Positions 30,503 to 64,000 of a DNA stretch of 64,000 nt are shown piece by piece (position 1 is the first letter of the stretch; each line of letters begins with the position of its first letter). This DNA is from Caenimonas koreensis DSM 17982. Its GTDB lineage: Bacteria; Pseudomonadota; Gammaproteobacteria; Burkholderiales; Burkholderiaceae_C. The notes under the pieces were generated by a model, which ran no database searches, was not told the DNA's origin, and was given only the letters and a program-made list of their open reading frames with translations. The DNA lies in NCBI RefSeq assembly GCF_009646335.1, contig NZ_WJBU01000013.1, positions 62,001 to 126,000 of the forward strand. The letters are read 5' to 3'. The position numbers were made by a program, and so were the translations under genes.

Positions 30503-32523
<2,021 letters not shown>

Positions 32524-32527
<4 letters not shown>

Positions 32528-60607: not shown

Positions 60608-63600
60608 GTGACCCTGCATATCTCCGAGTTCGAGGGCGGCGTCGCCCTCAGCGATTTCAGAGTCCAGCAACTCCTTCCCCGGCTGCAAGCCATCGACGAG
60701 CGCATCGCTTCGGTGAACGCACGCCTCGTTCACCTCGTGGCCAGTGACCATGCGCCCGATGCGTCCGAACAAGCGCGCCTGGCAGCATTGCTGACCTACG
60801 GCGACCCGTACACAGCCGCGGCCAACGGCGCGCTGATCGTCGTCACCCCGCGCTTCGGCACCGTGTCGCCCTGGGCGTCGAAGGCGACGGACATCGCGCA
60901 CAACTGCGCGATTGCCATCAAACGTATCGAACGGATCACCGAGTTCCGCGTCGTGACCAAGGCCAACCTGCTTGGCCGAGCACCCACGCTTTCGCAGGAG
61001 CAGCTGCAAGCCGTCGCCGCGCTGCTGCATGACCGAATGACCGAAAGCGTGATGTTCGATCGAGCGCAGGCTCGCGGGCTCTTCACCGAGCTGGACGCCG
61101 CGCCGATGGAGCATGTGGATGTGCTGCAGGGCGGCCGCGCGGCACTCGAAGAAGCCAATACGAAGTTCGGCCTGGCGCTGGCCGATGACGAGATCGACTA
61201 CCTCGTCGATGCATTCAAGGGCCTCGGGCGCAACCCGACCGACGTCGAGCTGATGATGTTCGCGCAGGCCAACAGCGAGCATTGCCGCCACAAGATTTTC
61301 AATGCGTCGTTCACGATCGACGGCGTGCCGCAGGACAGCAGCATGTTCGGCATGATCCGCAACACGCACAAGCTCAGCCCGCAGCACACGATCGTCGCTT
61401 ACTCCGACAACGCGTCGATCATGGAAGGCTCGCGTGTCGAGCACTTTGTGGCGGGCGCGGCGCAGGGACAGCTCTATCGCAAGCAGGATGCGCTGCATCA
61501 CGTGCTGATGAAGGTCGAGACGCACAACCACCCGACAGCGATCTCCCCATTCCCCGGCGCATCCACTGGCGCGGGTGGCGAGATTCGTGACGAGGGCGCG
61601 ACGGGCCGCGGCTCCAAGCCCAAGGCGGGGTTGACGGGCTTCACCGTGTCAAAGCTCTGGGGCGGATGGTCCGACCAGCCTGGCGGCAAGCCGGAACACA
61701 TTGCCAGCCCCTTGCAGATCATGACGGAGGGCCCGCTTGGCGGCGCTGCCTTCAACAATGAATTCGGCCGGCCCAACTTGCTCGGCTACTTCCGCGAATA
61801 CGAGCAGCAGACGGGTGATGTCGCTCGCGGCTATCACAAGCCCATCATGATTGCGGGCGGCCTCGGCGTGATCGACTCGCGCCTGACGAAGAAGATCGAA
61901 TTCCCGGCAGGCACGCTGCTGATCCAGCTCGGCGGGCCGGGCATGCGCATCGGCATGGGCGGCGGTGCGGCAAGTTCGATGGCGACGGGTGCCAATGCGG
62001 CAGAGCTTGATTTCGACTCGGTGCAGCGCGGCAACCCCGAGATCGAGCGGCGCGCGCAAGAGGTCATCAATCATTGCTGGGCCGAGGGCGACAACAACCC
62101 CATCCTGGCGATTCACGATGTGGGCGCAGGCGGGCTGTCGAATGCGTTCCCTGAGCTGTCGAATGACGCCGGCCGTGGCGCGCGGTTCGACTTGCGGCAG
62201 ATTCCGCTCGAAGAATCCGGGCTCGCGCCGAAGGAGATCTGGTGCAACGAGAGCCAGGAGCGCTACGTGATGGCGATTGCGCCGCAGTCGCTCGCGCAGT
62301 TCAAGGGCTTTTGTGAGCGCGAGCGCTGCCCGTTCTCAGTGGTTGGCGTTGCCACCGAAGAGCGTGATCTCGTCGTTGGCGCTGTGGACTTGTTTCCTTC
62401 CACGCACGCGGCAGAAGGCAGGGGTGAGGGTGACTCCCACCCCGTCAACATGCCCATGAACGTCTTGCTCGGCAAACCGCCGCGCATGCACCGAGACGTG
62501 AAAACCGTCGCGCGCCAGTTCAAGCCCGTCGATCTCACGGGCGTGAACCTGCAGGACGCTGCGATCAAGGTGCTGGGCCACCCCACGGTGGCATCCAAAC
62601 GCTTCCTCATCACCATTGGCGACCGCACCGTGGGCGGCCTGTCGCACCGCGACCAGATGGTCGGGCCGCGGCAAGTGCCTGTGGCCGATTGCGCCGTGAC
62701 GCTGGCCGACTACGCAGGCTTTGCCGGCGAGGCGATGAGCATGGGCGAACGCACGCCGCTCGCTGCCATCAACGCACCCGCATCGGGCCGCATGGCAGTG
62801 GCTGAGGCGATCACGAACCTGCTTGCCGCGCCCATCGAGCTCTCGCGCGTGAAGCTGTCCGCCAACTGGATGGCGGCTTGCGGCGAAGCGGGCGAAGACG
62901 CCGCGCTGTACGAAACCGTGCGAGCCGTAGGCATGGAACTGTGCCCGGCGCTGGGCATCTCGATTCCGGTTGGCAAAGACAGCCTGTCGATGCGCACACA
63001 ATGGTCCGACGGTGCGCAGAACAAGAAGGTCACCTCACCGGTCAGCCTGATCGTGTCGGCTTTTGCAACGCTGCAAGACGTGCGCGGCACGCTCACGCCG
63101 CAACTCGAGGCCACGCAAGACACCACACTCGTTCTCATCGATCTGGGCAAGGGCCGGCATCGCATGGCGGGCAGCATTCTGGCGCTGCTGCTGGACCAGG
63201 TCGGCAACGACGTGCCGGACCTCGACGACGCACAGGACCTGATCAACCTCGTCAACGCCATCAACGCATTGCGTGCGCAGGGCAAGCTGCTCGCGTATCA
63301 CGACCGCAGCGACGGCGGGCTGTTCGCCGCCGCCTGCGAGATGGCCTTTGCGGGCCATGTGGGCGTCTCGCTCAATGTGGACATGCTGGTCACTGAAGGC
63401 GACGGCATCACCGATAGCCGTGCCGATGTCGGCGACGCCAAGAACTGGGCCGGCCAGGTCAGCGCGCGCCGCGAAGAGCTGACGCTCAAGGCGCTCTTCA
63501 ATGAAGAGCTCGGCGTGGTGATCCAGGTGCCGACTGCCGTTCGCAATGAGGTGATGCAGGTGCTGCGCGAGCACGGCCTGTCCAAGCACAGCCACTTCGT

Positions 63601-64000
63601 GGGCAAGACGCGCCCGGCATCGTCGGAAATCAACGTCGGCAAGGGTGAAGTGCAAGTCTGGCGCGACACGAAGATCGTGTTCTCGGCAACCCTGTCGGAC
63701 CTGCACCAGGTGTGGGACAGCGTGAGCTGGAAGATCTGCCAGCAGCGTGACAACCCCGCCGGCGCAGACTCGGAGCATGCCGCCGCCGGCGATCCGCTAG
63801 ACCCCGGCCTCCATGTCTTCCTCCCTCCCCCCCTGGGGGAGGGGTGGGGTGGGGGCTCTCCCTCGACCCCCCCGTCCCTCAATCTGTCCCGCCCCAAAGT
63901 CGCCATCCTGCGCGAGCAGGGCGTCAACTCGCACGTCGAGATGGCGTACACCTTCACGCAAGCGGGCTTCGACGCCTACGACGTCCACATGACCGACCTG
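60608..64000 (+). CDS. purL: Phosphoribosylformylglycinamidine synthase (FGAM synthase), C-terminus outside window
   Basis: PurL makes FGAM from FGAR, ATP and glutamine in purine synthesis. The single-chain proteobacterial form is about 1,300 residues; 1,131 codons are visible. [19 protein letters not shown] and [19 protein letters not shown] mark the synthase, and the PurM-like repeats follow. The glutaminase domain begins near [18 protein letters not shown] and is cut by the window edge, before its catalytic Cys. Residues 1072-1083 ([10 protein letters not shown]) come from a dispersed repeat inserted in frame. The start is GTG 60608. Confidence 0.97.
63821..63855. repeat. 35-base palindromic repeat, copy B, inside purL
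   Basis: CTCCCTCCCCCCCTGGGGGA is followed by GGGGTGGGGTGGGGG. It matches copy A at 31461-31495 at 32 of 35 positions on the same strand. It lies in frame in the linker between the last PurM-like domain and the glutaminase domain of purL, without any stop or frameshift. Confidence 0.85.

Follow-up and report, generated by a model that had tools for sequence, protein, structure and literature searches.

The repeat found inside purL in the window (i.e. the whole stretch of 64,000 nucleotides analysed here) is probably an intragenic copy of a dispersed ∼42-bp repeat of the TMECO/PIT type, which would enter genes as discrete insertions, survive as frame-keeping copies in loops and fill such loops again in other species. 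The sequence-only reading had taken it for a dispersed element in coding DNA, which stands; it had missed the triplex layout of the element and the reuse of the same loops across species.

Copies in the window and in the genome

The 35-base repeat match in purL (hereafter copy B) spans 63822-63856 (+ strand), one base later than the interval given earlier (63821-63855). Its full extent is 63816..63857 (+ strand) by the genome consensus, in which conserved positions run from -9 to +32 relative to the core. Its host gene, purL (FGAM synthase; 60608..64000, + strand), was identified from its ORF and a family model (TIGR01735, score 1377.2 against a cut-off of 1123), and the window ends before the gene does. 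Copy A (full element at 31456..31497 and 35-base match at 31462-31496, both + strand) lies inside, and antisense to, an ABC-F ATPase gene (30503..32527, - strand; ORF and family model) whose nearest solved relative is YheS. The two copies are identical at 32 of 35 bases on one DNA strand (three differences), and none of 100 dinucleotide shuffles of the window contained two matches at ≤3 mismatches. Both copies are in frame: copy B in a + frame with purL, and copy A in the ABC-F gene, where the other strand gives the peptide PPPQPSPKGGG. The identity and the translation of the element from both of its strands, as first claimed, were thus reproduced.

Copy B corresponds to approximately residues 1071-1083 of the purL ORF, directly before the glutaminase domain (the GATase_5 match begins at residue 1095), in agreement with the interdomain linker proposed at the outset. 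This loop position was taken from domain limits and alignment with solved PurL, because the predicted structure of the PurL C-terminal part is too poor for loop placement (mean pLDDT 59; residues 1-119 below 50). Terminator and promoter scans of 63600-64000 detected nothing, and all Rfam matches at the element fall far under gathering scores.

The proposal of an element also depended on further genomic copies, and these exist: the Comamonadaceae host genome (4.6 Mb, 43 contigs), which named relatives put close to Ramlibacter and Caenimonas, contains 40 core sites at ≤3 mismatches, 20 per strand (three sites for the reversed pattern), and 12 of the 40 form six close inverted pairs. Initial guessed search patterns with A in the stem gave zero matches. 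One inverted pair (L015/L016, G000:C1:40285-40412) flanks a long G/C homopolymer run, which is perhaps an assembly artefact. In an alignment of 30 fetched copies out of the 40 sites, the element has sharp ends (at -9 and +32 relative to the core), a length of ∼42 bp and the consensus (A)CTTGCTCCCTCCCCCTCTGGGGGAGGGYTGGGGTGGGGGCA. At least five of these 30 copies lie in recognised proteins (i.e. purL, ABC-F, AidB-like, xanthine-dehydrogenase-type and metG), and two (L009 and L018) are at gene ends. Of 40 congeneric genomes, 31 also have the core, whereas the reversed control gave 0 hits.

Stop triplets are absent from all six frames of the consensus, as a six-frame translation confirmed, and from every frame in 27 of the 30 fetched copies; three copies hold stops. 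Among controls, the stop-free share is 25% for random 38-mers from these loci and 57% for base-shuffled versions of the consensus, so stop-freedom is partly a product of base composition. The initial suggestion that copies survive in coding DNA through their stop-free frames keeps most of its force, qualified by this compositional share and by the three copies with stops.

Hairpin, third strand and covariation

In the element, a G-rich tail comes after a 9-bp hairpin and repeats its purine strand in mirror image. In copy B, the pyrimidine arm CCCTCCCCC (63823..63831) and the purine arm GGGGGAGGG (63835..63843), assigned from sequence and fold, are followed by the third strand GGGTGGGGG (63847..63855; from sequence), a mirror image of that purine arm in which T stands opposite A; all three lie on the + strand. 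The consensus hairpin is CCCTCCCCC TCT GGGGGAGGG, and that of copy B is CCCTCCCCC CCT GGGGGAGGG. This layout is of the purine-motif intrastrand triplex type, the folding being predicted on paper. A G-quadruplex formed from the four G runs of the element is also conceivable. In RNA folding the hairpin is visible; copy B folds no better than its shuffles (z -0.53 and -0.67) and copy A mildly better (z -1.80 and -1.81).

Under the mirror rule (G on GC; A or T on AT), copies A and B both form nine of nine triplets, as do 65 of 73 distinct copies in 838 kb of loci. When tails were re-dealt among the 73 copies in 1000 deals, nine triplets were reached by a mean of 28 copies and a maximum of 41, and the parallel register fits 23 of the 73. 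The motif scan returned 89 matches in the real loci, three in the reversed loci and none in five mono-shuffles. It required GG at both tail ends, and the test is therefore carried by the middle positions alone. At these positions stem and tail change together: stem p4 and tail t6 are GG in 46 copies, AA in 25 and mixed in two, and stem p7 and tail t3 are GG in 63, AA in seven and other in three. Three subtypes were distinguished, i.e. the G-type, to which nearly all own-genome copies belong, the A-type (stem GGGAGAGGG, tail GGGTGAGGG; 26 of 40 genomes) and the D-type (stem GGGGGAAGG, tail GGATGGGGG; 23 of 40 genomes).

Across the class, the general motif occurs in 56 of 321 genomes (reversed control: three in G000 and four in G208). 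Thinned rows from 24 genomes show p4/t6 as AA in 23 genomes, GG in five, CC in one and mismatched in two; the set comprises 76 rows among the matches listed for the 56 genomes, from which most repeated haplotypes per genome and the G295 homopolymer rows had been taken out by hand. The distant genome G098 has several copies with C at both p4 and t6 (CCCCCGCCC..GGGCGGGGG..GGGGGCGGG) that retain the mirror symmetry; C is uncommon in purine triplexes. Taken from sequence comparison, the stem-tail covariation supports preservation of a triplex-compatible state, and common descent of two or three subfamilies accounts for part of it.

Filled and empty loops in housekeeping genes

The purL linker was compared in 98 distinct alleles from 110 loci (relatives and own genome), with ≤2 substitutions allowed in the core. 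It carries the element in 20 of the 98 (15 forward only, five as a reverse plus forward pair and none reverse only), a count that omits filled alleles at unfetched loci (e.g. G025, with an inverted pair inside purL), and the forward copies share a single reading frame. Unrelated repeats, which we label LSKG-type and VIAS-type, occur in this linker in two alleles each. The repeat-like peptide FALSLSKG is in frame in L040 and L059. In Rhodoferax-like genomes the linker contains VIAS.. peptides (L121 and L134) or, in L138, a long insert with SRVEPGMT, none of them related to the triplex element. When mapped on a tree built from flanking purL DNA (‘quick’ method, 96 of the 98 alleles), element and no-element states need 16 changes. 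An FD-type linker is also found in the solved PurL 1T3T, which we take to be that of Salmonella, and its kin. With this linker assumed to be ancestral and never regained, and with no horizontal transfer, 12 element-bearing groups lacking the FD-type linker count as gains, or nine after collapsing branches <95. Insertion accompanies replacement of the FD-type linker and is not a plain split of it. Two sister alleles (L033 and L034) contain different subtypes at one site.

At a second purL loop, 12 of 91 distinct alleles are element-like by a peptide rule, including a probable decayed A-type remnant in the window itself (GAAGGCAGGGGTGAGGG, 62414-62430, + strand, read as AEGRGEG; assigned from its letters and the peptide rule). 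A further family of RRAGPPQASAAPSGGS- or RLSRAAGAAAPSGGS-like inserts is seen at this loop in L071, L078, L080, L086, L098, L112, L116, L131 and L140 (shortened in L140).

In metG (methionyl-tRNA synthetase) the own copy lies near residue 505, between domains that end at 488 and start at 534. The element occupies the same place in the same orientation in 17 of 26 congeneric loci fetched, where two of the 17 copies are clearly decayed (L211 and L220) and another probably so (L222), and it occurs in none of four metG loci from other families of the order. The own copy in an xdhA-type flavoprotein (xanthine dehydrogenase) lies near residue 401, between domains that end at 392 and start at 412. 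This loop, examined last as a prediction of recurrence, is filled in five of 27 parsed loci (own included; L233 decayed) and empty, as a short loop of the VPRPxxGEFLR kind, in the other 22; the sample was 30 loci, three of them unparsable. In the own genome and L232 it is 12 codons longer than in L241, and these two copies are read in different frames, which counts against a selected peptide. The ABC-F loop is filled in three of 29 parsed loci (30 fetched), and in one more it is filled by another repeat. At L153 this loop contains the peptide VRPEPVEG..STSSTRTES in frame. The copy in the AidB-like acyl-CoA dehydrogenase lies near residue 120, within the AidB_N match (14-183). The empty-site comparison suggested by the sequence-only reading has thus shown loops of relatives that are empty or filled in frame, with xdhA as the cleanest empty site, and gradual low-complexity drift was not found.

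Copies for codon comparison were picked by peptide alone, because picking by DNA pattern biases towards conserved copies. Same-residue codons are identical at 660 of 803 positions in the element against 10693 of 15774 in the flanks for metG (element higher in 117 of 136 pairs), and at 649 of 818 against 14043 of 21734 for purL (113 of 153 pairs), the pairs being non-independent in both genes. The element also retains codons that are rare in the flanks (GGA 3%, AGG 5% and CCA 1% there). This likeness between species may reflect either constraint on the DNA or copies that are young or re-converted. The metG subtype tends to track the A-type fraction of its genome (one-sided Mann-Whitney p 0.017, seven versus ten genomes, kinship-uncorrected). 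Such a match between subtype and genomic pool speaks for conversion or fresh insertion; the stem-tail covariation speaks for constraint.

Explanations, route of spread and known systems

In the explanation that we favour, copies would originate at other places in the genome, alone or in inverted pairs, and are placed as discrete insertions, as filled and empty sites show, by a presumed enzymatic or recombinational route. Gene-breaking insertions should be lost. Insertions of the element that keep the frame in interdomain or surface loops would survive, because stops are missing from most or all of its frames and the peptide it encodes is short and rich in Pro/Gly, and this tolerance would allow the same loops to be filled again in other species. 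Copies might later decay, swap to another subtype or disappear. Passive retention of this kind does not explain the codon likeness between species, unless the copies are recent or re-converted.

Intragenic copies might instead be kept or refreshed for a nucleic-acid role, as a hairpin/triplex or other G-rich fold in DNA or mRNA that could, for example, pause replication or translation between domains. We regard this as doubtful, and are equally hesitant about the fuller claim, in which elements of the triplex type would insert into the same interdomain loops of housekeeping genes time and again and stay there as folded DNA or mRNA, not for their peptide. Stem and tail do co-vary across subtypes and in other families, element codons are more alike than their flanks in metG and purL, the flank-rare GGA, AGG and CCA are retained, and several copies lie between domains. 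However, many orthologues have no element and some copies have decayed (L211, L220 and probably L222), RNA folding gives weak z-scores (-0.5 to -1.8), the same codon pattern would follow from recent conversion or re-insertion and, in the accessible part of Holder et al. (PMC4666352), DMS footprinting gave no triplex in vivo. That the element peptide is selected as a flexible linker seems highly improbable. Coding copies, where seen, keep the frame and are rich in Pro/Gly, and those read forward in the purL linker share one frame, yet frames and strands differ between genes, the xdhA loop is read in two frames in two species, and unrelated repeats occupy the same loops.

An early insertion followed by gene conversion or recombination between copies, which would keep the loops alike with no new insertion, is also unlikely. 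Conversion would fit the metG subtype that follows the genome's own A-type fraction, although that p value (0.017) is not corrected for kinship, and it would fit the different subtypes at the same site in the sister alleles L033 and L034 and the rarity of mixed intermediates. It needs a resident copy, yet filled loops adjoin FD-type linkers in 9-12 separate groups, and xdhA has filled loops against clean empty sites. High G+C and proline/glycine-rich loops could be expected to favour chance low-complexity drift in a GC-rich loop, but the copies share ends and subtype structure; with two matches in 0 of 100 shuffles, and no motif in five mono-shuffles versus 89 in real loci, drift was rejected and has a negligible chance of being right.

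For the favoured explanation by discrete insertion, the means of spread was sought among transposases. The own genome has one Y1_Tnp gene (L031, G000:C38:205086-205415) next to a GGGGTCAG-type motif, an arrangement that resembles TIR-flanked RAYT relatives, and congeners gave 41 Y1_Tnp matches, with at least one in 38 of 40 genomes. The element occurs within ∼1.5 kb of Y1_Tnp at none of the 30 loci fetched among the 41 matches listed; 28 of the 30 carry another motif, GGGGTCAGR, which fits GGGGWSAS, given as the motif of TIR-flanked transposases in the accessible text of PMC3733652. Mobilisation by a linked RAYT gene found no support, as linkage was absent at these 30 Y1_Tnp loci. Target-site duplications were not identified at element insertions. 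The earlier notion of a mobile or duplicating element holds in so far as the element is discrete and dispersed, with empty sites in relatives; because no transposase was found linked (0 of 30 Y1_Tnp loci), ‘mobile’ is read from its distribution. As mobility genes are not reported near the E. coli motifs either, the route is left to candidates, such as a trans-acting enzyme or an error of replication or recombination for which the fold serves as template.

These results tie an intrastrand triplex repeat that has been described biophysically to coding sequence. Natural covariation between hairpin and third strand provides evidence beyond copy counts for a preserved triplex-compatible state, and the loops that recur in purL, metG, xdhA and the yheS-like gene offer sites at which repeat movement, and any effect on replication or translation, can be measured. 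Indels in the linkers of housekeeping genes can stem from repeats, which is relevant to alignments and gene annotation. If the nucleic-acid role is real, stem-tail covariation and synonymous likeness would reflect the importance of folded DNA or mRNA.

The closest known system is TMECO (earlier PIT), for which the accessible text of Holder et al. (2015, PMC4666352) gives 3610 occurrences in 262 proteobacterial genomes. The pattern printed there is a 9-bp hairpin CCCTCNCCC N3-6 GGGNGAGGG, a second loop of 3 and a third strand GGGNGAGGG, with one stem mismatch tolerated; the published motif is reported to fold as a single-stranded triplex in vitro by CD/NMR. The same text reports 23 copies in E. 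coli MG1655, always intergenic, and mentions that mobility genes were not found nearby. The consensus and copy B have the TMECO hairpin (CCCTCNCCC N3-6 GGGNGAGGG, 9 bp), the third strands of copies A and B (GGGTGGGGG) are one letter off GGGNGAGGG, and the copy at G000:C10:76667 fits the printed pattern fully. As far as that text extends, the two share the CCCTCNCCC arm, short loop, GGGNGAGGG arm, 3-base loop and G-rich third strand in the same order, a dispersed distribution, inverted pairs with differing second loops, and mobility genes not found nearby. At one position of the third strand the own-genome subtype carries G where TMECO has A, with a matching G in the stem; and unlike the E. coli copies as described there, copies here lie in frame in coding sequence at recurrent loops.

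Rickettsia palindromic elements (RPEs) are palindromic repeats within protein genes and are not known to share the sequence of the element. The accessible part of Di Nocera et al. (2013, PMC3733652) names RPEs, describes REPs as palindromes of 20-40 bp, single or dimer and some of them wholly intragenic, and places REPs at about one site in recB of two Xanthomonas species. The element resembles REP/BIME sequences as a short dispersed palindrome that occurs in singles and inverted dimers, and differs from REP/RAYT systems by its third-strand tail, by a consensus that contains neither a GTAG nor a CGTC tag, and by the lack of a linked RAYT at the 30 Y1_Tnp loci fetched. GTAG is absent from the palindrome foot in the consensus, where the 5' end is (A)CTTG-like and weakly conserved. 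BRE, dispersed in Comamonadaceae with 29 copies in Polaromonas sp. JS666 and some copies wholly within coding sequences, is ∼90 bp or partial (40-60 bp) and often tandem in the portion of PMC3110155 available, features by which it would differ from the element. That the same loops are used repeatedly was not found described in our literature search, itself partial. REP-like repeats inside genes are known already, and the element is a variant of a known structural kind.
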